In this document: positions 2,809 to 64,000 of the stretch, piece by piece
Position numbering within the stretch: position 1 is the stretch's first letter
Layout: each line of letters begins with the position of its first letter
Assembly: GCF_037126465.1 (NCBI RefSeq)
Contig: NC_088204.1
Coordinates: 22,946,804 to 23,010,803, forward strand
DNA: 64,000 bases
Direction: 5' to 3'
Source: Ornithodoros turicata
Taxonomy: Eukaryota > Arthropoda > Arachnida > Ixodida > Argasidae
The notes under the pieces: generated by a model
The model's input: only the letters and a program-made list of their open reading frames with translations
Told to the model about the DNA's origin: nothing
The model's database searches: none
Program-made: the position numbers and the translations under genes

Positions 2809-2984
2809 ATACTTACCTGGTGTCGGGTAGCCCGTGATCAATGTGGCAGGCTCCCCGGTTGGAGGCCAAGGCATTGCACTGCGTCTTGGTTGAAACCTGC
2901 CACTTCCCCAAATCGGGGTAGCTGGGACATGCAATTTTTGGTAGTGGGGGCTTGCGTACGCGCTCGTCCCCGTTTCTGTCGAAT
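2809..2984 (+). ncRNA. U1: U1 snRNA-like gene (variant stem-loop I)
   Basis: The sequence begins with the U1 5' end that pairs with donor sites (ATACTTACCTGG), contains the U1A-binding loop (CATTGCAC), an Sm site (AATTTTTGG) and the terminal stem (GTAGTGGGGG...CGCGCTCGTCCCC). A possible 3' box (AAAAGCAGA) follows at about 2992, which suggests a gene copy and not a processed fragment. Odd point: stem-loop I reads GATCAATGTGG instead of the highly conserved GATCACGAAGG bound by U1-70K, so this may be a variant or a decaying copy. No clear PSE was recognised upstream. Confidence 0.82.
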
Positions 2985-22300: not shown

Positions 22301-24860
22301 CCGTTGCGCACGGTCGCTGTTTGCGGCGTACTTTAAATTCAATTTCTGCGATAATTATGACTCTGTGGGGTGAATTACGTCTCAAGCTGCATTTTACTGA
22401 CCTACCTAACAGTTTTATAGAAAGAAAATATGGTGTTAAACAAAACATGACTTCTGTGCTACTTTAAGAGCCTCCATGGGTCTAGACAGACTTGATGAAC
22501 TTGCTGTGCTATGTTATGCGACTATACATATGTCTACTTATCTACATCGCGACTACAGATGTCTACGTAAGAGAGAAAAAGCATCGAACAGGCATTTTCT
22601 ACAACGCGTTGGTTCGGTACTGTTCATTTCTGTTTGAGTTTTCGCCTTGCAAACAGCATATGTGTATTCACATATGCTGAGGTCTGCGCGGGTGCGGGTG
22701 TACCCACGTATCCGCGCGGATACGCGCTGTACCCGCGTTCACGCTTTTTCGCGAAGTAAACGCGCAAAAGACCGGACCCTCAGTGTGCTTTATGATAACT
22801 TGATGACCGTCCTTTCAACAATTACGCATCATACATTTGATGTACCAAATGTAAAGTGCGATTAAACGTCCACAAACCAGAGGACGAAACCGGAACTGAA
22901 CCATAACCGAAAACCGCAACAAAAAAAAACGTTATTTTTCGCCGAGCCGTAAACATTTTTGGTCTCCCCTTGAACGAACCGGAACTGAACCGAAAAATAT
23001 GATGCGGTAACCGGTTCGCAGGACGGTACAAACGCCTATACCTTCCCACTCGACTGCCGTGCACCAGCTCCCTGCATCGCTCGGAATCTTGCCGAATTCA
23101 AAATTGATAAACCAAGAAGTGGTGAGTCCATGTACCTCCTACAACCTCACCTCCAAAAGGTTCACGACATCCCCGTACATTTTTGTCATTCGAGGTGTAA
23201 AAAAAATGTGCTACACGTGTCACTTTGCATTGTTACCTCGGCTGCTTCCTGTCATTCAGCGTCGCAGTGTGAAGGCGACGTAAATTTTAATAGTTCACAG
23301 TGATATCCATAAGCAACGCAGACACGGGAAAGAGGTTGGCGTGTAGTCCAGAGCATGGCGGAAAGAAACACTGAAACCTGCGCATGGAACTCTGGGATAC
23401 TCCTATCTACCACGAGACCGCTTTCTTCTTTCTCTTTTTTTTTCTCTCTCTCTCTCTTTAGAAATTAGCGATAGCGTTTTTGCAATTGAGTTCAGTGGTA
23501 TCCTGTACGCCATTTCCCAGCACTTTTCGGTACAGTAAAGGATGATCTGCTGTCGTGAACTGCATCATGGTTCTTCGTACCTAGGAAGTGTAGAGGCGAG
23601 AGAGTAACAGGAAGGAAGGAGGAGCAAGCCAACGCCCGGAACCTGGTACTGCCACTCACATGTGGTACACTGATTAGCACAGCACACCCTAAACCGGTTC
23701 AAACCGATTAATATCGGTTCAAACCGTTATTTTGGTTGCTCTGAAACCGAACTCCGGAACTTGAACCGAACCCCAAAAAATAACGGTTCGGAGCCCTGCC
23801 ACAGACACCTTCCTGTTTTTCTTCTTTGCGCTGCAGTACTCGAACTTGACTGCACTCCCCTGCAGTGCGGGTATGTGGATATACCCGCACGACCCGCTGG
23901 TGCGAGTGGCTCCGCCAAAACTCGTGCGGGAGCGGATTGGGACACCGTGTCTGCGGGTGCGTTTCGAGAATTACATACCCGCGCCTACTTCTACCAGTGG
24001 TGTCGTCTGTTATGTGCGAGATAAGTCATTGCCGATACCGCTCAACAGAAGACACGTCGAAACTTCTGCTCCTCGAGCAGTTTTTTTTTTTTTTTTTACT
24101 GTTTTGGGCGTTTACTTTCACCTGAACATCCCGCGGATATGTTCCTTGTGTGAATACACGGATAATGTCGTGCACCAACGCTTTAGCAATTAAAAAATTA
24201 CCGCGAAAGCATGCTCTATTCTACCGAACAGTCGGCTTAAACGTACGCCCGCGTCGTTACCCTTGCATTCACTTGCTGCAAAAGTGTGATATGTAGAATC
24301 TCTCTTTCCGTGTTCCGCGCATATTTCACTTGATGTACAATATGAGTGACTGTCAATGTATGATGAGCAAAGAGCGATTAATTGCAGGCTTGGTACTTTG
24401 CGCATTGCTGTGCAGGTTCAGCAGTATCTGGAACACTTCTGGAGGGGAATCCCCGCTCATCTAAGCCCGGTGTTGGGTTGCAACGCTTTGGTTAACCTGA
24501 TGGGTGTTTGTGACTCGGTGCTCTACCGGGCGCTGGCGTCTGCTCTCCTGCCATCTCCGTTACAACCGCTTCCTGACAGGTATTTACTTACATCGTCTTT
24601 ATTCGTTTCGTAGAATCGTGCATGTTAACGCGACGTTCGCGCCGATACACATTCATCTCGCATTATCGAATCAACAAGAAAGCTAAACTTGGTGAAAGTT
24701 GCAAAACGTACAGCAGTATGGGACTGCTGCAATTAATCTCCATTAATTTCGTTCTCTCACTTTCACCTTGCGTGTAATTATACGCCCAATTATTCATTAA
24801 TATGATTCGCCCTCTTCTTACTATCTCATATTATGTAATGCAATTATGTACTTCCAAAAT

Positions 24861-24900
<40 letters not shown>

Positions 24901-27900
24901 GGCCCCTGCGCAAGGATGACACGCAAAATCGTGAAGCGTATTATCAACTTGATATTTCATTTTCACTTTTTGTAAAACTTTTGTTATGCATTTCTATATT
25001 CTACTTTTCTTATGTGCTTCTCTCCACTCCGTTATGTAATACACCCTGGGGGTCTTCAACGTACTTAAATAAATAAATAAATATTTAAATAAATAAATAT
25101 CCTTCCCATCTTCCGTTCTTATCTTTCCTTTCGCCTATACACCCCGTGCAGCGCCTGTAGGGGCGCCGCAAGCGAATCCCCTAGCGGGAGGAGCGGACAC
25201 TTTTCCCGGGGCTCGTAGCACGTGTATAATATTTACCGCACCACGCTGATGGTGGTATCGTGAAAGACAATGAGGTACGGCTTCTACATGTAGCGCTGGA
25301 GTGTCCATACTCAAGTGTAAAAATGGGCATAGTGGACCACAATAGGACATTATATATTCCATACCTAGCTTTCGACGAGGCCCAAAATACGAGGTTAAAG
25401 GAGTACTGTACTGCACGTAGGTGCAAGTGCAGCTTTCACTATATGTGCTTGGACTCAAGAAATGCTGTTTTTATATGTGTTCGACAAAAGAAGAAGTATG
25501 TATTCAAGTCTTGCGAGGTGACAGTTCTCTTTGTGAAGCGGTTCCCAGACTTGATGAGTTTTATTTCACGCACTTTGTGCACATCCTTAGCAAAGCCGCT
25601 ATCTAACTGAGGCTACTGCTGTGTTTTTAAAAGTACTTGTTGCATTTTATACACACCGTGCAATTTTGCTTTGTGATAAATGTAATGATGTGGAGACCAC
25701 CCCACCCATAGTCATGATTTAGTTGTTGTTGTTGTTGATGTGGAGACCATTGAAACTGGTTTAAATGTTTTGTAATAAATAATTACATGTTTAGTATTTC
25801 TTTTCTATTGTAGGAATTAGAAAATCTGATGCAAGGTTCCTAATTTTATTCGATAGTGTAACACGACTGCGTGGTACACAGGGCTGCAGAAAAAAGCGCG
25901 ATTTAAAAAATCAAATAAATCGGATTCATTTGATTTAATCGACTCTTTTAAGTCTCCCTCCTAGCTCACGATTTTCCTCATAATCGTGAAGTACAACGAT
26001 GTTATATTAAAATTCGTAGTGATTCGTACATAACATTCAATTTACACCCCCTGACACATAGGTTTCTTTGATGATGTATACTGTCATGAGCTAAACAATG
26101 GAGTTTGGCCGATGCAACTATTGGCCTGAGTGTTTTTGGAAGGAGTTGAAATACAAGCTGAGATTTCACGCTATAGATTGTGGAGCCCTCTTCAATGTTA
26201 CGAAGTAATTTCCTTTCCAAAGGAAATTAGTTGGTAAAGAACAATAAAATTAAATCATGATTAGCACTAGTGATTAAAATCGCGTTTACAATCAAGATGA
26301 TATAAATCACGCAACCCTGATGGTACATCAAATGAAGAGCATGCTTATGTTGGGAATGTAAGACAGGTCGTGTCAATTTGTGAGACCTCAGCCACACGGT
26401 GTTTTGTTCTTAGTGAGTGTAGAATGGGAATGGTTCTTCTTAATTATTGGCTTTTGCAAGGAGCTTGAAGGAGCGGACTTCCCTTGTAAACGGAAAGAAA
26501 AATAGACGGAACATGAAGATCATATTGGATCATTTGACTTAGCACCGTCCGCAAAATGGTGATTACATATGACAGTGTTATTGGTGGGCATTACACGACG
26601 AGCTACCGTTGCTAAAAGAAACAATGAACAAAGTTCGCTTAGCTTCCCGACAGTGGATAACATGACTCAAAGCGAACACGTTTCAGTGCAGCGTTTACTG
26701 TACGTTTAACTGCAGCGATCCACTTCCCTCCTTTTCACGAGGCTTCTCAGGAAACGAATAAAATTTCGTTTCAGGCAGTGAATGCACATTTCACCATACA
26801 ACAATTCTTTTTCGACTTCTTTGGCGCCATACGACATGCAGCAACCACACAAGATCAACACGCTGGACGCTGCGCGCTACAGATGCAGCCCCGGAAAACT
26901 TTCCGTGCTTAACGCAGGGTGGCGCGAGAAGCGCTCTGCACGAGGCGTATAGCAACTATGTGTAACGTAGAGTCACTAAATAGGGTACAGAGCAGGTCCA
27001 ACAAGGTCGCCATTTTCCCATGTATTTGTTCCTATCCCGATGCGTGCAATGCCGGAGGCCGCCCTTAGATACCCCATTGTTACCAGGCGTTGGCTTGCGT
27101 GGATTGTAGCGCGCTAAAGATCCAGTTGAAGCACAATCCAAGCCAGGCCAAGTCACCGAAGGAGAAATGGACGACTGCAGCGCCTGCGGCGCCTGGTACG
27201 ACACGTACGCTATGTGATGCACGCAGCCGTGCACTAGATCCTTCCGATCGCTCAACACGTTTAAAAACGGGACCAAAAAGTGAAACACGACAGAGAAAGT
27301 TGTTATACGTGTTTTATTTGGACATATAAAGACTAGATTCATTCGCAGAAACAACAAAAACATTTTGCCGCTAAACTTAGCGCGCTGAAGTGATTCGGAA
27401 CGGCAACAGTGGGGTATCTAGTGGCGGCCTTCTTCGTTGCACGCTTTTCCGAGGTGAGTTTGGGGGACCTGGTACAGAGTATCGCATTTCCTTTCCGCGC
27501 CGGAGCCGCCGTTCGGTGTCCGCGATTGGGCCAATCGTGTCACGTGGTTTCTCCTTCCAAGGACGCGCCGTTCTTGTTGAGTCCCCTCCATCCAAAACCG
27601 GTTTCCTCGGTTGCGAGCGGGCTCGACTGCGCGCTGTTCTCCTGCGGAGAAGGGGGAGATTGGTGTCCCATTGCTAGGCGACGCCAAGCAATGGGACCGC
27701 GCCGGACCCAAGATGGCGGGCTCGCTCGCCGGCGTGGCTCAGTGTCGCTACTCTGCTCCCTATTTGGTGACTCTAATGTTACGGAATGCTTTGGGAGACA
27801 GTTGATGCTTCTACGACAGTCGTACATTTCTACAGTGCAGTCGTACAGTACGTTGTGCTACTTTGGGGAGCAAAGTGCTTAATGCCTGTCAATAATAACA

Positions 27901-30900
27901 GCGCAATTCCCTGTACGAGATAGAAGGAATATTCCTTTACCGGTGACCAATAGCGACACTTTTTTTGTGGACTGTCTGTTTTTGCGCTGAACCTTCCCAG
28001 ACGAAAATGAAGTATATCACTGTTTGACAGCATAGTGCCCTTACAATACAGTGCCCTTTTGCCTGTGGGAAAAGCTACGCGTATCAGTGTACTTCATAAT
28101 ATCAATAGTCGGTTCCGTGGATATGTTCATAGTTTTCTTTAAATGCTGTGCTGCTTATACGTTTTGCGATAGGTGCATGAAACTTCCATGCACCCATGAC
28201 CGAGAGATACACGTACGCAATTCCGTGTTTTCCTATAGGCTGATACGCTTCGCCATCCTTCTTCCAGATTCGGGTTGTGGGCTTTCTGTGTTTCATTGTC
28301 TGAAATCCAAGTGGTATCGTCATCATGTCTGTCAAAGATTGCGAATATTGTGACCTTGATAGGTTATCATGGTACCCTTTCAAAGGGATAGTTCGTTTTT
28401 GACGGATCATATCTCATATGTTTGTTGGAAAGGGTAGTGCGTTTTGGACTTCACCAAGGTTTTTGCATTACGTACTTCGCGTGATGTTGTGTAGTATAAT
28501 TTAGTATCGGCATCCTAAGGCTACTGGAATCCATGCAATTTGAAATTTCCGCCCACAGAGACGAATGCGCGGAGTCATGTGATAGCACTGAGACGTACGA
28601 GAGCGTTCACATCTCACGTCCTCCTGTTGGCTGTCATCGCTGGCACGTGACTGCCTCAGAGGGAACCTCATGCAAGTCACGCGAGCGGATAAGAGGCTCT
28701 CTACTGGCAAATTCGGGTGGTCATTTTGTGGCAACTTTTTTTGCCAGATCACGAGCCGCCATGTTCGCTTGGTCAAAGCGCAGCAATCTCGAATGTTTGC
28801 CTGGCGCCTACCGAGCGCCAGGAATTTGCCAGTTAGTTCTTTTTCGCCCGGCCTCGGTATAGCCGTGCAGCGGGTAGTCCAACTCGGTGCGGGTAGCCCG
28901 GTGTCATCACATGCGCACTGCAAGGATGGCGAGGGCCCGCATTGGCTCGCACGTCGAGGTTCACGTGGGTTAGCAGACGACGAAACTGTAGTGTTGTGTT
29001 ATCACATATCAGTTGTTGAATCTTGTTGCATTCCCCTCTGTTGATATCGTTTGTCACTTGCCTGACCTTGACATGTGTATCGTGGGTTGCTACTTAAAAG
29101 GTGCAGCGGCGAAATAAAGCTTCTTTCCTCCGCTCCAGAACTTGTTGTTATCCTGTTGCTCACCTTAGCGACACCACATAGTGTCAAAAGTGTAGCATTG
29201 TTTTTGCATTCACTATGCAGTCCGACAGGGAAGACAGTCTTTGTCTCTGCACCATTCGCTGTACGGCAGCCAGAACCGTTCAACTTCGACTGCACAACAG
29301 AGTGGGAGGCGAGGATACAGGAATTTGACGACTATCGCTACGCACCAGGCCTCAGTGATCGCAGCAGCGAAGCACAAGTCCGAACCCTCTTGTACACAAT
29401 GGGCAGGGAGGCAAGAAAAGTGTTTAGCACGTTCACCACTTCTGAAGAAAAAGCTAAAAACTACGACGTCGTCAAGAAAAAGTTTGATGAGCATTTTATA
29501 CAGGTAGACAACGTAGTCTATGAGCGCGCCCGCTTCCACCGACGCTGCCAAGAACCCGGGGAGACCGTCGACCAGTATATTACTGCGTTGCACACGCTAG
29601 CGGAGAGATGCAAATTTTCCGAAATGAAAGACCGCATGATTCGCGACAGATTCATCCTAGGCCTCAAAGACTCTGCACTGTCAGAGAGTTTGCAAATGGA
29701 CCCTACACTCACCTCTGCTTCTGCACTTGCAAAGGCTCGCGTCAGGGAGAGTATTCACAAGCAACAGAAGGAGCTCCAAACAAAAGACTTAAACCTTGAA
29801 TATGCTGATCCAGTGAACAATCCTAACGTAGACAGTCTGGGTCGAGGAAAAAGGGCTCAGTCCAGGGCTCCGAATCACAGGAGCGGGCACCGAAACAAGA
29901 CTTCTATTCCCGATAGCGATTCAGTTTGTGCTTGGTGCGGGCGGGGGCAACACTTCCGTGCGGCGTGTCCAGCGAGAACGGTTAAGTGCCATAATTGCAA
30001 GAAGGCTGTACACTTCGCAAGGGTTTGGAAGAACAAAACATCGAGCAGCAGTAAGTTCAGATTTTCAACAGTTTCCAAAGAGAGCGAAACTTACGTTTTG
30101 GGGACCCTGTCAGATAAGAGGATGTCTTGCAAGTACACCAATGTTGCTATCAACGGAATTAGTGTAATAATGAAAATTGACTCTGGTGCTGAAGTAACCG
30201 CTGTCCCGATGTCTTTCCCGTGCAACCCTACCACGCTGGAGCCAGCTAACGAAGTGTTGAAAGGTCCCTCTGGACAGCCATTACGGGTGATAGGCAAATT
30301 CACGACGAACATACAATGAAGGAACAAAGTGTCCCGTGAAGTGGTATATGTGCTTCACACTGCACTGTTGGGTCTACCAGCCCTCGAGTCGCTAGGCATT
30401 GTAAAGCTCGTGGAGCCACTGACTTCGTACTCGAAAAAAGTTGAAGTCCCATCAACATCAATTTCCCAAGTTGTTTCCTGGATTGGGAACGCTTCAAGGC
30501 AAATACAGCATCAAACTTCAAGAAAATTCGACGCCATACGCCTCGTACACTGCTAGAAGAATTCCCATTCCGCTTCGGAAAGCCGTGAAAGATGAGCTTG
30601 AGAATATGGAAAAGCACGGAGTTATAAGAGCTGTAGAAGGGCCTACCCCCTGGTGCGCCGGAAAAGTAGTGAAACCTTCAGGTGGTGTCAGAATTTGGGT
30701 CGATTTGACGAAATTAAATCAAGCAGTTTTGAGAGAGCGCTATGTACTACCCACCGTGGAAGAAACTCTGGGGCATCTTCAAAATGCAAGGGTCTTCTCG
30801 AAGCTTGATGCGAACTCTGGCTTTTCTCAGATTCAGCTATCGCCAGAAGGCCAAGAATTCACAACGTTTATCACCCCGTATGGTAGATACTGCTTTAGAA

Positions 30901-33900
30901 AAATGCCTTTCGGCATCACGTCGGCTTCCGAGTATTTCCAGAGGAAAACATATGAAATTTTGAACGGGCTACCAGGTGTGGTAAACATGATGGACGATGT
31001 CCTGGTGTACGGAGAGAATGAAGCTGAACACGATTTCAACTTGCACAAAGTCTTGGAGAAGCTGCGATCTGCCGGAGTCACATTAAATGCAGCAAAGTGC
31101 ATGTTCAGGACGAAGGAAATCACTTTCCTTGGATACCGCATCAACGAAAACTGGACAGGTCCTGACGCGGATAAAGTTAGTGCCATCAAGCACCTTCCGC
31201 CACCAACAGACGTTTCTGGTCTAAGGCGACTTTTGGGAATGGTGACTTACATGAGCAGATTTTTGCCTCGCTTAGCAGACAAGACGACACCACTCCGAGT
31301 ACTGTTGCGCAAAGGTACCGAATGAACTTGGGGTCCGTCCCAACAGACAGCCTTCGATTATATCAAGGACTCGATCGCTTCTGCACAGTGTACTGGTAAA
31401 TATAATACGACGTAACCTACCATATTGTCTGCAGTCTGTTCTTCGTACGGTATCGGCACCGTTGTGATGCAAGTGCGACCGAATGGGGAAACTCGACCAG
31501 TGGCCTTTGCTTCCCGGTCGTCAACAGAAACTGAGCAACGCTATGCTCAGATCAAAAAGGAGGCTTTAGCTTTAACGTGGGCAGCAGAAAGGTTTCGAGA
31601 ATATCTGTGTGGACTTACCGTCACGTTTGAGACTGACCATCAGCCGCTGGTAACTCTACTGGGGAAGTTACCGTTGGACGTTTTACCGCCGCGGATACAA
31701 CGCTTCAGAATGCGTTTGATGTGCTTCAAATTTAACATTGTGTACGTTCCGGGTAAAAAGATGGTTACCCCGGACACGCTGTCTAAGGCGCCAATTAAGG
31801 AGTCCAAGAACCGGAAGTACGGCGTGGATGCAGCTCAGGTCGAAGCCTTTGCACTCGCGACGCTCAGCGGCTTATCGTCAAATATTCAGTTAGAAAGAGT
31901 CCGGAAGGCTCAAGAATCCGATAGCACTTGCAGGCTCCTGAAGCTGTTCTGTGAAAGAGGTTGGCCGCAGAAGTACTCTGGTCCACTCGAAGTAATGCCA
32001 TACTGGCAAGACCGGTCTTTGATTACATGTTGCAATGGTCTACTTCTTCGAGGAACCTGTCTTGTGATACCCGAAGAACTTGCACGAGAGACTTCAAGGT
32101 GCTGTCACACTGGACCGACAGCCGACAAAATTTGTATGCCGACATCGAAAGACACGGTATCCTTGCACCTGTCACACTGCACAGACCAAAGACGGGCGAC
32201 GCGTCTGTCTCTCTGCCGGCCGTCACGGCTGGACGCTGTCGGTACCCGCCGCTGACAAACATGCCTGTCACACTGAACGACAGCAACATCGCTACTGCTG
32301 CCACCACTCTGTTCGAAGATGGCGTCCTGCACAGCAGAAGCGTATGGGGATGTGCGCCGTGGCGTTTTATCTTGCGCTCAACTCGGACGACGACGATGAA
32401 ACCAGTAAAAAGCCACGATCATTGTGGAGTAGGAAGTGGCTCGTGCGACGAAAAAGCATGGGATGCTATGAGAATCTCATGCTTTGTCTCCATTGTAGAT
32501 ATCAACGTTTTCTCATCTTCCGTTGTGAACTCCATAGCTGAGGGGCAACACGACGCGCGCAGCGAAAGCTTTCCAAAAGACGAAGCGAACACACCTCCGT
32601 CAGAGGCGCTGATTGTTTAAATAATAATCGCAACACCCACAACATGGATTTTTAAAAAAATATTATCTTTTCGCGCTGTGGATGTCGTATGTCGTTCATC
32701 GCAATTTTGAGCAACGATCAAACTGCTGTTGACATGTCGTCAGACTGTGTCTGCCTGCCGATTTTGTTATCGAAATCTGTCAAACTGAAACGACATTTTG
32801 TCGACTTGCTTCTGCCGCTGTCCGTCGGCGCAGTGTGACAGGTGTGCTTGGCAATACAATGTATGGTGACAACGTCTGTCTTCCATGGGCGTCGGCGCCG
32901 TGTCAGTGTCGGTGTCGTGTCGGTCCAGTGTGACAGCACCTTTCTTTACGACGGTCATCTAGGTATCGTGCGGTCAAGAGTTAAGACACGAGAGGGTGTG
33001 TGGTGGCCGCGAATCAGTAACCAGCTTTCCGCGATGATAACAAAGTGCGGCGGAAGTGTGCTGAATTTCGGCATCAAAACTCTGAACCGCTTATCGTCGC
33101 TACCACACCTCAGCTTCCGTGGCAGAAGCTAGGTGCTGATTTGTTTGACTTGAAGAGCCGAGTGTATCTACTGATCGTGGACTACCTATCTCGTTTCCCA
33201 GAGATAGCACTTCTGGAAAGGACGACGACAACTTGCGTCAAAGAACACATGAAAAGCATTTTTGCTCGCCACGGTATTCCGGAAGTTTTGATAACAGATA
33301 ACGGGCCTCAATTCGCAAGTCAGGAGTTTGCTGATTTCGCTGGACGCTATGGCTTCGCCCATCGGACGTCGAGCCCACGTTATCCGCAAGCGAATGGCGA
33401 AGCCAAACGAATGGTTCAGACCGTTAAAGGTATGTTGCAAAAGGCAGAAGATCCGTATCTGGCGTTGCTCGCTTACAGAGATACGCCAAGTCCTCTCGGG
33501 AAAAGCCCAGCCGAAATCCTGATGGGACGAAGATTGCGCACAAGGGTTCCGGTGCATCCACGACGACTACTGCCGCGCAGAGTCGACTTCAGAAAGCTTC
33601 GCAGCGCTGACAAAGGTTACCGTCGAAAACAGGCAAGAGATTTCAACAGAAGACACACAGCAAGAAATCTGCGAAACCTACAGCCTGGTGGTAGCGTTTG
33701 GATCAAAGGTGCGAGGAAAAAGGGAACCGTCATGGAGAAGTGTGGTGCTTTCAGGTCACATGTTGTTCGCACGAGTGGTGGGGACTTGCAAACGAACCGA
33801 AGAAGTCTGGTCGACCTCTTCTCTAGTGACCAATAAGAAGAGCCTCCACGGCAGCGTGATCAACAGCAATCTTGAAACACTACAGGTAACCATGGTACGG

Positions 33901-39900: not shown

Positions 39901-42900
39901 CCCCTTCGAGGCAACAACATTCTCATTACTTGACGCAGTGGCCAAAGAGTTCGAAAGCTACCTGGAAGACGAGACGCCAATAGAGGGCTACATGGAGTGG
40001 ATGGAGGCCCTTGTTAACAAGACTGTCGCCATAGTAAGTGCGCGTTCTTTACTGTGCTGTTCTCTCGTTGCAAATAAACGTGAAGGCCTATTAAATGCAG
40101 AAGTTATGCTGGCTTACGAGATTAGATAAATGTAGACAGTTTTTGCGAGTTGACTCTGGGAGTTACGGTGATGCACTTTCACTTACAGCCTTGCATGGAG
40201 AAATCGCTGCCGGCTCGACGCCTTGCTCGTCAGTTCCTGCTCACGTGGTCGGCTTTTGGATCGAGAGTAATTCGGGACATGACAGTGCACGGTGCTGCGA
40301 CATTCGGTGAGCTGATACTTCTCAGAACTACTGCGGGGGTGTTCGTTTATTAAACTAGGTAAACTAGCGCGACCCGCGACTCAGAGTCGAGACGTATGAG
40401 AGTTATTGTACAGGTCCCGATAAAAGTTCACGGAACACTGGAGTGGTGTATATAGTCATCTGAGCGACACGGTTGCTGCAAACAGGAGCAGATAGACTTA
40501 CAAACAGGTGACCGGTACTCGACGCACCTCTTAGTAAGTGTGTCCACTCCCGTTCGCCGCTAGGGTGTCGCTGAGATCAATAAATACGTCGCCCTGGTGT
40601 TCCGTAAACTTTTGTCGGGATCTGTACGTCAATTTTCGAACGGGAGTTACTTCACGTGGACGACGTCACGAGAGCCGCAATGCGGCATTTTCGCCTACCA
40701 AGAGTCGACTCTCTCGGCTCTCGAATTGCTCGAGTCCAATAAACGAACGCAACCAGTGCTGTGTTGTGGCTCTGGCACCTTATTGCAACGTAAGACATGT
40801 AGCTGAAAAGAGATTGGCATGTCTTAAGCTTTTCTCCTAATAGTTTCCATGGAACTGTAAGGGGTCCTTAAAATGATGTGAGCGCAGTGCTTATGATTAG
40901 AGGTCTGCGCGGGTACGTATATTCTCGACCCGCAGCCGCACCGCACCCGCACCGCACCCGCAGACACGGTCTCCCAATCCGCATTGGCACGAGTTTTCGC
41001 GGAAATGCACGCACCCGCTCCCGCACCCGCGGAGTTTGTATTATATTCGCACATAATACACGCTGCGTACATTCGCAGACCCACACTGCAGGGGCGTGCA
41101 GCCGAGTTGTACAAGTTAGAGTACTGCAGCGCAAAGAAGAAAAACACAAGGCCGTTTGTTGACGTTTAATCGCACTTGATATTTGGTACATTAAATGCGT
41201 GATACAGAATTGTTGAAAGAACGGTCATCAACTTATCACAAAACGCACTGGAAGTCCGGTCTTTTGCGCGCATATTTCTCGAAAAAGCATGAACGCGATA
41301 ATAGCACGCCTTCCACACGACCCGCAGCGGACCCGCACGTTACCCGAGACCCGAGTGACGTCACATCCAAGATCACCAGCAAATCCAAGATTTAATGGAT
41401 ATCCGCGCGGATGTGCGGGTACACCCGCACTCGCGCAGACCTCTATATAGTTTCAGGATGTCTGGTGAGAAAGTGTCATTAAATTTCAATTTCAAAAAAA
41501 CTACGCGTGGTAAAAATTTGAGACTTGTTGTACGACACTCCTGAAGGTTTTTGCCACTCAAAGGTTTGCACGAGGGTAGCTCATTTAATTAGGCTAATTA
41601 GCGTAATTGAACTCAAAATTTTGCCAAGGAAAAGTAACTTTTTTTTTCGTTAATTAAAAGGTCCGTGGCCAACACAGACACACACACATACATTGGATGG
41701 TAATGGGGTGGGCGTGGCCAAAACATGCTGTCTCAATCGTAATTTCAAGGTTCTTCAACCGTATCCCCAATTATTTGGCACCCGAAAACTTGCCATCTCC
41801 GCAAGTCCGTTTTCGTGTTTCATCAGTGCCGGCACTATCGGCAAGGCCCGAAGACACTCCCACTGCGCATGAAAAAAGCATGAGAAAAACAGAAAAAGAA
41901 AAGGAGGGCAGAGAAAAACGGAGAAATAAACGGTGGAGCAAAACAGAAGAAAAAGATATTGACATTGAGGTTACCAAGTACGTGGGCTGTACATAGCACT
42001 TGACTTGTCAAATAACATCAAAGAACCATCACAGGCTTACGTTGTGTGCCTTTTCCCAATGCGTGTTACAATGAGGTGAGGTCCTAAGCGAAAAAATAGG
42101 GCGTCACGAAGAAGGTACAGGCTAATCGCAAAACATCAAGTTTAGTTTTTCACAAGTGGAGGGCACCGATAAGTTGCCGAGGCAAGAGCACTGTCCCCTG
42201 CAAGAAATGCGTCCTCAAGACACAGCCCATCGATCATTCGTATCGAAGGAAGACGCAAAGACAGACTGTCTTTTCAGTTAATATGCATGCAAACGAGCAT
42301 ATGCATAGTTTACATTAAGAACGAAAATTGTTTCAAATAACGACTTCTTTCTAAGGAGAGCACGACTCATTTCACACGTGTTGGTCGTCACGCTTTCACA
42401 GAGTAGTAAAAGACATTGGGGGACGAGTGATAGCTGATGGGAGATTGAGAGAGTGGATGAAGCTAAGAAAGTGCTCGCGCACGAATATGACAAGAATATT
42501 GGCACTAGGCACGGCCCCTCGCAAGTGACCAGCTCGCGTGGCTCAGCTGATGATAGCGTGCTGGCCATGTCACGTCGAGACCGGGTTCGTCTGTTGTCTG
42601 GGTTTTCCTGGGTTTTCCTCGGACGCTCTCAGACATACGTCGGCACAGTTCCCTTAGAAGTCGGCCCAGGACGCACATCCCCAAGAGCGTTAGTCGTCAC
42701 GTTACCCACTCTGTGAGGCGGACAGCGGCGAGCTCTTTCATTAGCACCACCACCACCCTCGCACGCCTTTAACTTTACACGCGCATGAGACGCGCCTTTG
42801 CAGTAAGAAATCGCGCTTCTTTCTGTCAGCCGAAGCAGTCAGTCGAGTTGTGTTTCGCTTAGCGTTTTTCGCTGCTTAAACCTATAAACAGCAGCTGTGT

Positions 42901-45900
42901 TATTCATCTGCTCCGTACAGGAGCAGGTCTACTACGTCAGTTAACCGCCAAGACATGTCAATACTGTAAACAAGGATTCCCAGTATAGTAGGTGGGGCAA
43001 TGAAACATGGGACGATTGAACGCTTTGTAGTTTGAAACTGGTCGAGTTTGGCAAAAGCCAGGCTGTTCCATTCAAACTGAGGTACGACAAGCTAGTCATC
43101 GGATCCAAGAGCTACTATTATAGTCAGGAAGAATCTTGTGTTAAAGAAACTCCATCGTAGCTAAATAATGTTCATGTTGTTTCACCCGTTGTCATCACTG
43201 AAACAGTGCCATCGCTCTCTGTGCTCTATACGAACATTAGAAGCGTAATACCCAAACTTGATGCCCTGTGTAGCCTATTGTATGACTGCTCCTCGGACAT
43301 TGTTGTTTTAACTGAGACGTGGTTATCGTCTGATGTCTGTAATGATGAGCTTACCCCATGTTTTGCCGATTACCATATATTCAGATGTGATAGAGAAGGA
43401 AGGAGAGGAGGTGGTGTACTAATTGCAGTAAAAAAAACACTGTCGCCCACCCATATTGAAGTTAGCGTTGAAATCGAATCTGTATGGGTGTCCTTGTCAC
43501 AAGTGTATCCTAATCTTCTTATTGGAGTGTGCTACAGACCACCTGGTACCCCTGACTCATTTGTACAGTCCCTACACGATTCCTTATCGTATATTGTCAG
43601 CAAGTTTTCATGTCATCACTTAATTCTGCTCGGTGATTTCAATTACCCTCATGTAGATTGGACCAGTGTGAGAGCTCGCTCATCTGCTAATGGTGCCGCA
43701 TTGGTTGACCTGTCTCTAACTTTCAACTTAGAGCAACTTGTGTCTGTTGCTACGCGAATTACATCTTCTTCGGATGCTGTACTTGATTTAGTTTTTGCTT
43801 CGCATCCTGATGACGTGTCATCGCTTTCTGTTTTTGATGGGTTGAGTGACCACAAGGTCATACATTTCTTGTTAAAATGGAGCACTCCTACCCGTCATAG
43901 GGGCACTTCAACGAAATTAATCAGAGATTATGAACGCGCAAACTTCGACGCGATTAACGATGGTCTACGTATGTTCCATGATGATTTTGTTTTGGGCTTC
44001 TATGAGAGGTCCGTTAACGATAACTGGTGCCTTTTCCGTGACACCCTCAACCGCCTTACAAAATTACATGTTCCTATAATACGTATAAGACGCCATCCAA
44101 AATCGGCATGGTTTAATAACGAAGTCAGGGCACTGCGTAATAAGAAAAAGCGACTATTTAGGAAGGCTAAGAGCTCTAACTGTTCTAATTCTTGGACGGA
44201 GTACAATTTGTGCGCTAATTCTTATAAATCTGCGCTGAAGAAAGCTAAGAACAAGTACTTCAGTCGTGACTTACCCTCTCTGCTAATTAATAACCCAAGA
44301 AGGTTCTGGCAGGAGATATCCCCCAGAAAAGATAACATAATCCGTATAGCTGACTCCAGCGGGAACCCGGTATCTTCTAACATGGCCGCTTCCTTATTCG
44401 CAACACATTTTGCATCGGTTTTCGCTACTAGTCACGAAGACCGTTGCGAGTATGCTCCCCTTCATTTTTGTGCAGAACTATGCAGCATCAGTGCCCGGGG
44501 CATTTGTAAATTAATTGAATCTTTGAAGCCATCCACAAGCTCAGGGCCTGATGACGTCAATACTAAAGTTCTACGCATAACAAAAGAAATTTCGAGTGTC
44601 TTCCTTTCCTACATATTCTCCCAATCCATACAGGAGTCTGTGCTGCCGAATGATTGGAAAGTAGGAAAGATTGTTCCAGTCTTTAAGTCAGGCGACAGCC
44701 TAGTTGCCGGTAACTACGGGCCGATCTCGCTGACCAGCGTCTGTTGTAAATTATTGGAGCACATTATTTACTCTCACGTTGTGCAATTTTTGGAGGAGAG
44801 CAACTTTTTTTACCCGCTACAACATGGCTTCCGCAGACAACGATCTTGCGAGACACAGCTTGCATGCTTTCTTCATGACCTCTTCATGAATGCGGATACC
44901 CGCTCACAAACTGACGCCATTTTTTTAGATTTTCGCAAAGCGTTCGACAAGGTACCTCACCATTACCTTCTCGAAAAGCTCCGTGCGACACATATTGACT
45001 CTAAGTCTTACAACTGGATCAGAGAGTTTCTCACTAACCGTTCCTCATTTGTAATGTGCAACGACTGTCCTTCTTCCTCCTTTGCTGTGACGTCTGGTAT
45101 CCCTCAGGGCTCGGTACTTGGTCCCCTTTTTCTAATCTTCATCAATGATCTCCCTAAGAACATTTCCTCCACTATACGTCTTTTCGCCGATGACTGTGTA
45201 ATCTATAGGAAAATCTCATCACCTGCCGACCAGATTGCATTACAATATGACATCTCTCTAATTCACTCCTGGTGCCTGACTTGGGACATGCCTCTTAATC
45301 TTGATAAATGTAACCTCATATCTTTTCTTCGTCACAGTCCTAACCAAATGTTTTCATTTCCTTATTCACTTGACAGTTACGTTCTTGTCAGGGTCGACTC
45401 TTACAAATATCTCGGTATTCATCTTTCCCAGGATTTATCTTGGAACAAACACATCGAATCAATAATTAAGAATGCTAATCGCTCCCTGGGGTACATTAGA
45501 CGTCACCTTAAGTCGGCCCCACAGGGTATCCGAAAATTAGCATACGTTTCTCTAGTTAGATCGAAATTGGAGTATGGTTCAGCTATCTGGGATCCCCCTC
45601 AGCTGTACATGTGCTCTGCATGCTTTAGAGGCTGTCCAGAACAGAGCAGCTCGTTTTATTGTCAGCGACTACTCGCGAAGTTCCTCGGTAACGGCAATTA
45701 AACAGCTACTTGAGCTCCCTAGCCTGGACAGTCGCCGAACCGTCGCAAGGTTATCACTTTTTCACAGATTCGTCCACAGTATCCCACCTAACATTTCTCC
45801 GCTTACCCGCTCTACAGTTATATTCCCACGTTTCGACCATCGATGCAAAGTAAATCGTTTTCAATGTCGAACAGACATCTTTGCGAAATCATTTTTTTGT

Positions 45901-48900
45901 CGAACCGCAATTAACTGGAACGATCTTCCCTCTGACTTAGCTGAGCTCGTTGACTACGATAATTTCCGTGGCCAACTTTCCGTTTGATGTTTGTATTCTT
46001 TTTATAATGTACTATTATGTTTTTCTATTGTATGCTCTACTTTTCGTGCCAGCCAGGCAATATGACTGGTTCAGTGTTTTGTACTTTTTTTCTCTCTCGC
46101 TCGTCGTTTTTGTGTTGCTGACATGCATGTACCATCCTACTCCCCCATGTAGCGCTCTGATGAGCCTTTGGGGTACTTTAAATAAATAAATAGTGCGGTT
46201 GTGTGTTTCTTTGCCTCAGCTATGTCCTCGTTACCGGAGAAGAACGCCGTCCGCCTCGCGTGTGTTCGTCTACATAAAAGTGACTGGCAACAATGGAAGA
46301 ATGTGCTGAGAATGAGTGTGTGCTCCTGTGTTTCCTAGGGTGGCTTGGTGCATTGATGGGAGGGTAGCTTACAGGGTGTAACTGCTGGTAGCATCTCTGA
46401 ACGGAAATGGGAGGGCGTGGGATCGAATCCCGTGCACCGCTTGGTGCATCTTCATCGACTACCCTTCTTTAGTCCAAGAAACAGCGTTCTCCGAAAGTGC
46501 ATGTCGCACCCGACACATACCCAAGTGTCGCCTCTAAAGCCCGAATCCCATAACAAGCGACACGCGGCAGATACACGCGAGAAGCGACAAAATCGACGTC
46601 ACTGCCGCCACACGAGCGTCAAAAAAGCTCAGTCGCGGCTGAATATTTCTGCATCTACTCCCAGTAGATATTTGTAGCATGTCGCTGAGTTCGTTGCCTG
46701 TTGTTTGACAAAACCAGCTAGATTTGACGGCGTGAAACAAGAACTGAACGCGTGGGCAAGGGAAAGGGTGGAGAGGGCAACCAACAAAAGTAGCAGACGA
46801 AGAAGTGGGCGGGGCGTTGGGAACTTCAACCGCAGCGCCACTGCGTTACGGCGAATATTACATAGCACCTTCATTACAAGTTCTCCTCGTTTTGACGAAT
46901 GAAATACTATTTTTGGTATATTTATGGCAATTTACAACTTAGCTCGAATAAAATAAGCAATGCTTCTCCAAAAACATCATTTCTCGGCGACGAAATGTCG
47001 CTGCTCAAATGGACCAGGAAGTCGCGCCATGACCAGACGCGACAGCGACAAATTCTGCAGCGCGTCGCGTGTCGCTTGTTATGGGGTCCGCGCTTTAGTC
47101 GTTATTTCGAGCGTTGTATCTTTTGGCGTGCAGGTTCCTTCTATTTGCTACGCCTGCTGTTTGACGACTACGTGCTGTGCCTGCTCGAAGGAGTCCTTAC
47201 CGATGAACTGGTCCGGCAGTTTCTCAGCAATGCCGCCGCAGACGCCCCTCTAGTATCCTTTCCGGACCTATCCCTGCCTTCGTGTAAGCGGCGCTTCTTT
47301 TTTTTTTTTTTTCACTCACGCATATTTTCGTGTATACTAAATGAATCAGTTAAAACAGTCACCGTGTCCTACAAAGCAACGTTGAAAGAACTCGCAGCTA
47401 TAAACCCGCACTCTTAGAAAAAAGGGTGGAGCAGTTACACCTTTTAGGAGGTAATGGTTCTCGCATATGTTGTGCCTAAAAGGTTGCAAAGTTCTACCTG
47501 CTACCTACGAATGATAGGGTTACCGAGTCAGTGAGCGAGGGGGGCGTACGCCTTTTTGTAGCAATTTGGATATATAATTGCTTTTACCACCCTTTTTTCA
47601 CCATTTATCAGACGCTATGTTAACCTAGGTGGTAACTAAAGTTACCACCTTTTAACACCCTTTTTTCTTAGAGTGCGTTAAAGGTTTTCACTGCATGCAT
47701 AAAGAAGACCGTTCTCAGTTCTTCCAAACACGACCAACATTGGCAAGTATAATATTCGAGGTAGTAGTGTTTAGTAGTAAATTTTGTGTCTAGCTCATAT
47801 GGTATCCACTAAGACGTGAATTCAAATTTGCAGCCACATTTTGTCCGCCACAGAGCAGGGGTACTTTAAGAAAAAGCGCCTGCGTGCAATTACTTACTTG
47901 ATCCCGGGAACATTTAATACAGTGATTATACAGGGCTGACTGAGACGAAGAATCTTATCGGGGAAACAAATCTCAGATGGCCCCTCCACGGGGGCAGGCG
48001 GGGACGACTGACAAGACTTCTCGCTCAGGGGTGTACTATTCGGGGCCGCCAGCGCGTGTCAAACCGTGGTGGTGGAACTTTCCCCCTAAGTTCTATGGCC
48101 TGTCCAAGACGGACCTATGACTGACGTAGTCAATAAAGAAAAAAGAGAAATGTATGTTGTACGTGTAACCTATGCAGCTCCTACTGCCAGTATACCCGCA
48201 CCAGGAACTCCGGTCCAGGACGCGTACAGTCGAAGTCCACCTGCTCAAGAAGTGCCAATTGGGCCACACAGGGACGCCAGTGAATTCTGCGGTTCGTTAA
48301 ATCTTTCTCTCACTCTTAAGAACATATTACATCATAAGTGCTGTCGTGATGCTGATCTGCAGTAAACGAGTGCTGAGCGATGACCACATTCAATGATTTG
48401 TCTGGTTGATTCGCGTGTGATCTGATCTCTATCGAAACAGAAGTTCCTACTGCCATGATGACTTCTGTAGCGCCTTGGCCTCACAGCGAATACTGCCAAA
48501 GGTAGGAAAAGAAGCCCAATGAGCATACATATTTTCGTAGTGAGAAACCTCCAAATGTTCTATTTGCAACCAGAAAGTCGCCCGCCTACACATTTAATAT
48601 TAGTCTTTAAAAGGCTTATCTACGTCTCTGCGGACCTTGTTATGCGGAGCTTAGCGTCGTGAAGCGCCGATGGTGCTGGTTCCATAGAAATCTTACCGTT
48701 AAGAATTCTATGGCTGGTTCCGAGTTCTCGCCTATTGATAATGCAAGAAGCTAAAAGAGAAACATGTGTTAGGTTTCTTCTGTTTTTGTACGTTAACGAA
48801 TGCTAATATATTCGACACTTCTATGCTACGATGCTACATGATGTGCATATTATTGTGGATATGTGCGATAATCTGCCGTACACCTCATGTACTCTCAGGA

Positions 48901-59770: not shown

Positions 59771-60208
59771 TTAATTTTCTAACTTTTAAATTATAAAAGC
59801 TACGAAGTTGTCTCAATGAGAACATCTGATCTCTTCGGTTGCCTGATACCAAAGCCGTTTTCAGAACAAAAATTCGTTCGATAGATCGTTCACAAAAAAT
59901 TCGTGAAGGAACACCATTTTTTTCTTTATTTAGTTCATTGCGCATCCTCGAAGACGCGTATTTCCTTCATTCCCAATGTGAGAGAGTGAAAGAGTACAGT
60001 GCCGCCTCATGCGTCGAAGATGAGTTTTAACTTGCGGAAACAAAACAAAAAGAAATGTATGGGGTGACTCTATCGCAACTGCCCTTATCTTGGGTTGCTA
60101 TTTCTATTTATTTTATTTTATTTATAAAATACTACAAACCCTGAAAGGGTCCAAGTAGGAGGGGCACAGAAAGTCCAAAATAATTTACAACAAGACACAT
60201 ATGTCACA

Positions 60209-62942
60209 TCATGTAACTGCGTTTAAGCCTTTCACAAATGCCGTGACAGAGCGGTGTGAGACCTGAGCAGATGACAGAGAATTCCATTCTTCGACGGTTC
60301 GAGGAAAGAACGAATATTTAAAGCAGTCAGTCCTGCACTGGAATGGTTTGACTGTGCGCTGATGGCTTAGCCGTGTTGATCTGGGTGCGTGTGGAGTGAT
60401 ATAGTCCTGATGATTGATTCGAAATTGATCATTGAGTAAATGAAAAAGAAACTGGAGCCTATGAGTCTTTCTACGCTCTTCCAGCGGTATTAAGCCACTC
60501 CGTGCGTAAAGAGGAGCAACTGAGGTGAGACGATGGTACGACTTAAAAATAAAACGTAACGCTCTCCTTTGTACGGATTCAAGAAGTCGAATATTCGCAA
60601 TGGTGTACGGGTCCCAAACAATATCACTATATTCCAGAATAGGACGGACTAATCTTTTGAATGCCGTTAACTTAGTATGAGCTGTGGATTCACGAAAATT
60701 ACGTTTTAAGAACCATAATTTCTTGTTAGCCTTCTTTGTTATGTACTGGATGTGCTTATTCCAGCGCAGGTCTGATGTAAGAAAAACGCCCAGGTATTTG
60801 TATTCGGAGACCCTTGAGAGATTCACTGAGTTAATACAATAATTGAAGGTGAGCGGTTTCCTTTTCCGAGTGACACTCATGACCACACACATACTTATGT
60901 TAAGAGGTAACTGCCATGTCTCACACCAGTCAGCCATTTTCTGCAAACAATTATTTAAACATGCATAGTCATCACCGCCATTGATTTCCTTATGCAATAC
61001 ACAGTCATCGGCAAAAAAGTTCATTTTAACATCGATACCCATACCAACATCATTTATAAAAATTAAAAACAACAAAGGACCCAAGACCGAGCCCTGGGGA
61101 ACACCGGATGTAACTGGTACGAAGGACGAGTCGGCGTTATTTGCATGGACAAATTGTTTTCTATTGTCAAGGTAGTTGGAAAGCCAGGTAAAGAGTTCAT
61201 CGCTTACAATTTCCTTCAATTTTAATAATAATTTACTGTGAGAGACTCTGTCGAATGCTTTAGCGAAATCCAGAAAAATAACGTCGACTTGTCCACGAGC
61301 GTCTACAACTTTGGCAAGGTCATGGGTAATGTTCACAAGCTGTGTCACTGTGCTTAGACCGTGGCGAAAGCCATGTTGACTGGTGGAGAAGAAATTCTTA
61401 CTTTCCAGATATTTTGAAATATGCTTATATACGATATGTTCTAATACTTTACTACATGTGCTCAGAAGGGATATCGGCCGGTAATTTGCAATATTTAGTT
61501 TGGAACCTGTTTTAGAAATAGGAACAACCTTGGCTATCTTCCAATCGTCCGGGAGCTCCCCACGTGTCAAAGATACGTTAAAAATAAGAAAAAGGTACTT
61601 GGTGCACCACTCGGCGTACCGAGTGAGAAAGGTATTTGGGATGCCGTCTGGGCCTATGGCCTTCTTGCCGTTTAAGTTAAGAAGTAGAGTAAGGATCCCT
61701 TGCTCGCTAATGCTAAGTCGTGGCACTGGTTCTGTGGGAAAACTGGGCACAGATGGTAAGCACCCGTCGTCAATGGTAAATATGCCAGCAAAATGTTCAT
61801 TGAGTAGAGAGGATACGGAGCAGCCGTCGTGAACAATATTATCGCCATGTGCTATCATTATTTGATTATCTTTGTTCGGCGAGGCGTGCCTCCAGAACTT
61901 GGATGGGTCCGATGTTAGCAGATTATGTAGTGTTATGTTGAAGTACCTTGTTTTTGATTCCCGTATATCCGCTCTCAGTTCAGCACGAAGCCGCCTGATA
62001 TCAAGAGATAGGTTCTTGTCGCCCTTCCTAACTAATCTTTGTACTTTCCTTTTCTTATGAATTATTGAGCGAGTTATCCATGGATTTTCGGAACGAAACC
62101 GTTTACGTCGTTGGGGCACGAACTTCCGGGTGCATTCGTGCACTGTTCGTTTAAAGAGGTCCCACGGGGAGTTCACTGACACAGATGAAATTGCTAGGGC
62201 ACTGAAGGTATCAAAGAAGTCGGAAAGCTCATCAATTACACTATTGTCGTCTGCCCTAGAAAAGTCATTAAATACGCGAGTTGTTAACTGCTGCCGTTTT
62301 TGGTGAAGGGTCCCAAATTCTAACAGTACGTACCATCCTGTGGTCCGATATGCCTTCAAGGATGCTGCATTCCGCTTCTCTAGTAAATATCTTGTTTGAT
62401 ACAAACATCAAATCCAATATTGACGAGGTAGTGCCCTGCGTTCTCGTAGGCTCCTTAACGAGCTGGAGTAAATTGAACGAGAATGTCATATCGACGAGAG
62501 CGCGGGAACATTCATCGTTGGTCAACGCAGCGAGAGCAGACCAGTCAATGTTAGGCAAGTTAAAGTCACCACCAAGGATTACATAGGGATGGCGGGCAAC
62601 GTGAGTGTTTATATAATCAGATAGCTTATTCAGAACGGATATGCCTGCAGAAGGAGGCCTGTAAAAGCCGCCTACAAGCAAATTTCCAAATGAGAGGAAC
62701 AGCTTCACCCAAACCATTTCGACATCAACAACTTCCGGCAGCACAATGTACTCAATTTTTTTTTTTAGGACAACAGCGACGCCTCCACCTCTAGAGGATC
62801 TATCCTTACGAACAACAGTATAGTTGGGTGGAATTATTTCATTACTTTCAATATCACTGTGAAGCCAAGTCTCCGTAACAATGAGCACATCCGGATCATG
62901 AGACAAAAGCAAACTTTCTATGTCTACTATTTTGTTCACCAT
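60209..62942 (-). pseudogene. LINE ORF2: AP endonuclease plus reverse transcriptase, 4-base frameshift
   Basis: The endonuclease half (62942 to about 62330) shows VLIVTETWLHSD, GGGVAVVLKKK, GGFYRPPS, LGGDFNLPNIDW, SILDLMFVS and GISDHRMV. At about 62330 a duplicated GTAC shifts the frame; LLEFGTLHQKRQQL continues in the next frame. RT follows: [96 protein letters not shown] and catalytic FADDCVLHK. It ends VEEWNSLSSAQ...NAVT at 60209. Apart from the 4-base insertion it is open. Confidence 0.93.
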
Positions 62943-62999
62943 GCTTCTGGCATTTAGATTAAGAACCCCAAATTTATCAGAACCAGTCTTTCCATTAAG

Positions 63000-63953
63000 T
63001 CAAGCTTTATTAGTACTGGTCAGTGGTGCATCCTTTACAGAGGTTGCTTTGCGTCGCTGACCAGAAGCATAGTCCCAAACGTACAACACACCATCTATGT
63101 ACAACTTGTCATAACTCGACCGTACTTTAGCACCTCGTGACCTTTCATCGCGAGCGCTGTCCCATAACAATTTCCTTGTTGCCCTAATTCTACTAGAGAA
63201 GTCTTCCGTAATGAACAGCTTCGTGTTTTTAAGCTTACTTGCATTACGCAACACCTCAGTTTTCTCGCGGAAATCGAAAACTCTTAGTATGACAGGACGA
63301 GGTTTACTTGAAGACCGCCTACCCAATCGGTGTATACGTTCAACTGAGGAAACCGTAACGTTAAGCTTATTTTCGAAAATTTCTTTCAGCACTTTTATTT
63401 TTAGGTTGTCCTCAGATTCGCCTTCCTCTTCTGGTACGCCGTGAACGATAAGGTTGTTGCGCCTCTGTCTGTTTTCAAGGTCATCAACTTTCTGTTGAAA
63501 TTCTTGCAACGTGTGTTTAAAACTGGCAATGTCAGACACACACTCACTCACGACAGCTTGGCCTCCACTTAACATATCTACGGTAGCCTCAATTGTAGCT
63601 ATATTGCTGGCCAGGCTCTCGATCTTCATTTCTAAACTAGATTGACTTATCCTTAATTCACTGATAACGGCTTCAAGTTTCCTATTACTTTCATTCACAG
63701 ACTCGATCCGTTTGGTTATCTCCCGTTGACCACTAATCAGGAGTGAAAGCTGTTCCTCTATCGTTGGCCCGGGGTTAGATTCGACGTCGCCCGACAACAT
63801 GAGGAGCATCTCTGAGATATTGACATAGAATGCGATGCAAGCTTGAGGGCACGGCAGCAGTATCAAACACAAGTCATTACTAGAGTAGCAAGGGTAGTTA
63901 CGCTTACCAACCTGAATAACAAACAGAGGATACATCAGTGAGCGTGCTGTCAT
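63000..63953 (-). CDS. LINE ORF1 with N-terminal 2A-like motif and coiled coil
   Basis: ORF1 has 317 codons. Residues 1-50 are hydrophobic-rich (LCLILLPCPQACIAFYVNIS). Residues 55-63 are GDVESNPGP, an exact fit to the 2A consensus D-(V/I)-E-x-N-P-G-P; in other systems the ribosome skips the bond between the last Gly and Pro. Residues about 64-170 form a long heptad-rich coiled coil, then an RNA-binding-like domain with NRQRRNNLIVHGVPEEEGES and GRRSSSKPRPVILRVFDF, as in ORF1 proteins of CR1/L1 type. Start is the ATG at 63953. If the 2A works, a 62-residue leader would be released from the RNA-binding protein. Confidence 0.92.
   Translation of the reverse strand: MTARSLMYPLFVIQVGKRNYPCYSSNDLCLILLPCPQACIAFYVNISEMLLMLSGDVESNPGPTIEEQLSLLISGQREITKRIESVNESNRKLEAVISELRISQSSLEMKIESLASNIATIEATVDMLSGGQAVVSECVSDIASFKHTLQEFQQKVDDLENRQRRNNLIVHGVPEEEGESEDNLKIKVLKEIFENKLNVTVSSVERIHRLGRRSSSKPRPVILRVFDFREKTEVLRNASKLKNTKLFITEDFSSRIRATRKLLWDSARDERSRGAKVRSSYDKLYIDGVLYVWDYASGQRRKATSVKDAPLTSTNKA
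63765..63791 (-). promoter_or_regulatory. 2A-like ribosome-skipping motif (GDVESNPGP)
   Basis: Nine codons of ORF1 encode GDVESNPGP, preceded by LLMLS. The full required core (D-V-E-x-N-P-G-P) is present with no substitutions. Confidence 0.88.
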
Positions 63954-64000
63954 ACTGCCGCAGTGCCCTCTGTCAGACTGGGGAAGCTCTGATGCTTTTA

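Follow-up and report, generated by a model that had tools for sequence, protein, structure and literature searches.

Organisation of the retroelement and its surroundings

The window (the whole 64,000-nucleotide stretch of Ornithodoros turicata DNA analysed here) carries at its right-hand end a retroelement that is read from the minus strand and comprises an ORF1 with a 2A core near its N-terminus, an ORF2 and a probable 3′ tail, while the ORF2 of a second element lies on the plus strand. The features were placed as follows:

63768–63953, minus strand: leader, residues 1–62 counted from the first ATG, which would be freed by skipping (the true start may lie upstream)
63816–63872, minus strand: 19-residue stretch where the leader is most hydrophobic, residues 28–46 (Kyte-Doolittle mean 1.86)
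63789–63806, minus strand: leucine-rich hexapeptide LLMLSG (p6–p11, residues 50–55), adjoining the octapeptide DVESNPGP; class compared by eye (PMC12846837)
63765–63791, minus strand: 2A core GDVESNPGP, residues 55–63, found by pattern and translation; skip predicted between Gly62 and Pro63
63000–63767, minus strand: ORF1 protein after the predicted skip, running from Pro63 as far as the TGA stop (63002–63000)
63459–63761, minus strand: probable coiled coil, modelled from the single sequence as one long helix over frame residues 80–180
63186–63515, minus strand: weak resemblance to the RNA-binding part (RRM) of L1 ORF1p (PDB 2yko/2ykp, E = 0.008)
62268–62999, minus strand: APE-type endonuclease part of ORF2 (PF03372, E = 5.7e-17; PF14529, E = 7.1e-17)
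60209–62407, minus strand: reverse transcriptase part of ORF2 (PF00078, E = 2.7e-33)
60101–60127, minus strand: probable 3′ tail of AAATA-like repeats, seen in the sequence and with an inferred boundary
43218–45933, plus strand: ORF2 of a second non-LTR element (endonuclease and reverse transcriptase), frameshifted near its C-terminal end

ORF1 occupies an intact minus-strand frame (63998–63000) that is open over 332 codons, the motif included, and codes for 317 amino acids from its first ATG (63953). Along this frame the motif is followed by the probable coiled coil and then by the L1-ORF1p-like region, the RNA-binding part being recognised by weak match only (the match to Pfam PF02994, E = 0.036, stayed below the cut-off of the family). 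The single-sequence model of the ORF1 frame had a mean pLDDT of 53, too poor for a fold search, and the long helix alone was used; this helix block reached pLDDT values of 81–94 over frame residues 81–140 and of 56–73 over residues 141–180, and a profile search of ORF1 matched coiled-coil families weakly, at scores under their cut-offs. The C-terminal half was modelled with a mean pLDDT of 52, with 85 of its 168 residues under 50. With this domain order, ORF1 looks like an L1-like, type II protein.

In line with the original prediction, which had assigned the frame to ORF1 of a LINE, an APE endonuclease and a non-LTR reverse transcriptase lie downstream of ORF1, and by its protein domains the element is an APE-type non-LTR retrotransposon. 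The reverse transcriptase part matched LINE-1 ORF2 protein chains from solved structures (E = 2.6e-19 to 5.8e-19) and no RNase H family; besides RVT_1, a single viral family appeared at chance level (E = 0.15). The element probably belongs to the CR1/L2/Jockey kind, and the absence of RNase H presumably fits these clades without choosing among the three. The frames of the endonuclease and the reverse transcriptase overlap at about 62.3 kb, an overlap read as a frameshift in this copy; since ORF2 is split in this way, a 2A signal in ORF1 characterises the family and need not belong to an active element.

The endonuclease lies in the frame of ORF1, directly after the TGA (63002–63000), which is followed by C, a leaky stop context, and no methionine precedes the start of the matched domain. 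The ATG found four bases past the ORF1 TGA is in another frame, which closes after 13 codons. The joint between ORF1 and ORF2 could be explained by read-through, by reinitiation followed by an indel in this copy, or by descent from an ancestor with one ORF.

Over 584 residues, the main aligned piece, the second ORF2 shared 38 percent identity with the first, and no ORF1-like frame was found for this second LINE in 40001–43600 (three frames). The window also contains a broken LTR-type retroelement (29072–33836, plus strand) with gag (PF03732), reverse transcriptase (PF00078), RNase H (PF17917) and integrase core (PF00665) matches in separate frames, and a remnant of a mariner-like transposase (19107–19964, minus strand) with PF17906 above and PF13358 below the cut-off. 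Matches to the U1 (2809–2972, plus strand) and U6 (24848–24950, plus strand) spliceosomal RNAs were both full-length to the Rfam models and mark the DNA as eukaryotic.

Relatives of the element were sought in viral and prokaryotic collections, so that missing relatives mean little for an animal element. None of the pattern matches to ORF1 passed tblastn, either in prokaryote contigs (0/37) or in viral contigs (0/5), and the same was found for the reverse transcriptase part in viral contigs (0/10) and for a two-row alignment of the two ORF2 proteins of the window (0/137 in prokaryote and 0/186 in viral contigs). The DNA pattern for GDVExNPGP had 0 matches in viral contigs, and megablast of positions 60100–64000 against phage records gave no match.

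The 2A core and its upstream context

Translation of the minus strand placed the nonapeptide GDVESNPGP at 63791–63765, that is, at residues 55–63 of ORF1, and so reproduced the exact 2A core that had originally been read at these residues. The frame of the motif is on the minus strand; one plus-strand frame translated over 63765–63953 has two stops. NPGP occurs once in the six frames of the whole window, in the ORF1 motif alone, and no second NPGP accompanies the second LINE. Searched for as a degenerate DNA pattern with up to two mismatches allowed, the core likewise had one match in the window, with 0 mismatches, against a mean of 0.01 matches in 100 dinucleotide shuffles (a match in 1/100). 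The six-frame residue frequencies of the window predict 5.5e-5 occurrences of D[VI]ExNPGP and 1.5e-7 of the full nonapeptide, and shuffling the residues of the ORF1 frame 200,000 times never produced the core. Given the expectation for the core in six frames and the outcome of these shuffles, chance was rejected as the origin of GDVESNPGP. No solved structure matched a 27-residue query spanning the motif, up to E = 10.

A 2026 study that covered almost 10,000 StopGo sequences from viruses defined the core octapeptide as (D/G/C/N)(V/I)ExNPGP and sorted the hexapeptides upstream of it into classes (PMC12846837). DVESNPGP agrees with this definition exactly. According to the same study, the hexapeptide of the leucine-rich motifs 2 and 6 ends in (A/S/C)G, a G at p11 accompanies a D at p12, D at p12 and S at p15 are associated with motifs 2, 4 and 6, and viruses of arthropods commonly carry motifs 2 and 6 (PMC12846837). 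Every stated leucine-rich preference is present in LLMLSG-DVESNPGP, namely the SG end, G at p11, D at p12 and S at p15, the fit to motifs 2/6 being judged by eye from the published descriptions. The viral leucine-rich motifs sit in polyproteins of viruses, whereas the ORF1 motif is found in a cellular retroelement (PMC12846837). Since the 2A of FMDV is fully active only with a native context of over 30 residues and chimeric sequences are often inactive (PMC12846837), the context is not to be judged from these 14 residues.

We consider it likely that ORF1 of this APE-type non-LTR retrotransposon contains a true 2A (StopGo) signal belonging to the leucine-rich class. That the motif is instead a chance or relic 2A-like peptide, which ribosomes do not recognise, would agree with the split ORF2 of this copy, and is made very improbable, the least probable of the readings weighed here, by the low number of cores expected in six frames (5.5e-5) and by the fit of the upstream hexapeptide to the matching StopGo class.

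The leader and the predicted products

With a genuine leucine-rich-class signal, the ribosome most likely skips the bond between Gly62 and Pro63, which would separate a 62-amino-acid leader from ORF1p. With residue 62 in place, LLMLSGDVESNPG would occupy the exit tunnel as the nascent chain and the peptidyl transferase centre would be distorted; the ester bond to tRNA-Gly would be hydrolysed, the leader, ending in Gly, would depart, and translation would restart at Pro63. Skipping would yield mainly an ORF1 protein that starts with PTIEEQ and carries the coiled coil and the L1-like RNA-binding region without the leader, and a minority of ORF1 protein would remain fused to it. The sequence itself shows the motif, its frame, its fit to the class and, with the RNA-binding part as a weak match, the domain order; that skipping occurs, how efficient it is and what its products serve for are inferences.

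The original prediction had called the 62 residues in front of the ORF1 protein hydrophobic. This held for residues 28–46, with their mean of 1.86, and failed for the leader as a whole, in which residues 16–27 are polar by inspection and the mean Kyte-Doolittle value over all 62 residues is 0.48; a hydrophobic character of the whole leader was rejected, the high value being confined to one stretch. For comparison, stop-free, half-overlapping segments of 62 residues were taken from all six frames of the window: 28 of the 681 segments match the hydropathy of the best stretch in the leader and 42 of the 681 equal its mean. Hydropathy alone was therefore rejected as proof of a targeting signal, as 28/681 segments are equally hydrophobic.

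These values bear on the possibility that the leader acts as a signal or membrane anchor, so that skipped ORF1p would be cytoplasmic and unskipped ORF1p would go to the endoplasmic reticulum or another membrane. Such dual targeting builds on 2A skipping and adds to it without excluding it, and it draws on the hydropathy of residues 28–46 and on the 2A signal sequences of sea urchin NLR proteins, a precedent shown with reporters (PMC4981915). We regard it as unlikely, since an equal stretch or an equal mean recurs in the window at the frequencies given above, residues 28–46 include two prolines and one glutamine, and the leader has 62 residues here against 26 in sea urchin. At the moment of skipping, residues 28–46 would be 16 to 34 residues away from the peptidyl transferase centre and thus mostly within the tunnel, so that a skipped leader would not take ORF1p to a membrane, whereas an unskipped chain could.

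The start codon of ORF1 is uncertain, because the frame is still open at the end of the window, 15 codons above the first ATG. These open codons up to the edge would allow translation to start beyond the end of the window, in which case the 2A would part ORF1p from a longer product and the 62-residue leader would be the tail of that product. Fifteen open codons are, however, presumably common by chance, and the first ATG (63953) has an A at −3; both argue for a start within the window, and we hold a longer upstream product to be improbable.

The joint at the other end of ORF1 allows a further reading, to which we give a low probability, below that of a longer upstream product: the element would be a one-frame element with two recoding steps, a 2A skip and a read-through at TGA C, and its leader would tether the unskipped minority, together with the RNP, to a membrane. 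If NPGP and TGA were both kept in other copies, this would be a LINE that sets its product ratios by recoding at both joints. For the preferred reading, a leucine-rich-class 2A signal that frees ORF1p from its leader, a family with many copies would provide a natural mutagenesis set for the residues of leader and core that the LINE requires, and for the question whether LINEs use 2A to direct the location of ORF1p.

Comparison with known 2A systems

The kind of arrangement described here is already known: non-LTR elements with 2A have been published, and so have N-terminal 2A signal sequences. Odon (2013) is said to have found 2A, in addition to Ingi, in the Rex1, Crack, L2, L2A and CR1 clades, and highly active ones reportedly came from Rex1, L2, CR1 and Ingi; these elements have in common with ORF1 a 2A core in-frame with retrotransposon proteins. 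An N-terminal 2A was reportedly described by Heras et al. (2006) in L1Tc of Trypanosoma cruzi. There, as in ORF1, the 2A is in-frame with proteins of a non-LTR element; L1Tc belongs to another clade than the present element and has a trypanosome host.

Type II ORF1s of the Tnp22 kind, with coiled coil, RRM and CTD, have been described in several CR1 and L2 subgroups, and their domain order is the same as here, as far as the weak matches show (PMC4120745). The main text of that article on type II ORF1s contains none of the terms '2A-like', 'Odon', 'translational recoding' and 'oligopeptide'. Among the literature matches listed, no title concerned 2A in a tick element, the papers of Odon 2013, Luke 2014 and Rao 2025 lying outside this scope; that of Rao 2025 is described in PMC12846837 as a profile HMM survey of viral and cellular proteomes. 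The word 'tick' is absent from the main text of PMC12846837, PMC11512398 and PMC8310308, and the available text of PMC4981915 has neither 'Ixodes' nor a mention of ticks. The sole 'ribosome skipping' entry among the tick-term matches listed concerns mouse constructs (PMC6452264).

A further comparison is offered by the sea urchin NLR proteins, in which cleaved and uncleaved forms of an N-terminal 2A reach different places in reporter assays (PMC4981915). The idea that a fused fraction is sent elsewhere is thus already known, having been published for these proteins. They share with ORF1 an N-terminal 2A in a leucine-rich context, and differ from it as host immune proteins with a 26-residue leader, signal-peptide predictions for 12/14 sequences and cell data (PMC4981915), whereas ORF1 is a retrotransposon protein with a 62-residue leader. 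The sea urchin sequence SpNLR2A6, with an activity estimated at about 80 percent, has L14, L13 and M12, the same letters as in the ORF1 motif (positions counted back from the last proline, a numbering deduced from P3A), and changes at positions 13 and 14 substantially reduced its activity (PMC4981915). At position 11, SpNLR2A6 has R and the R11A change substantially reduced its activity (PMC4981915), whereas the ORF1 motif has L, which fits the LLLLSG class. Set beside these systems, the tick element would add to the cellular 2A sequences a clean, class-conforming one, carried by an ORF1 that looks L1-like (type II).
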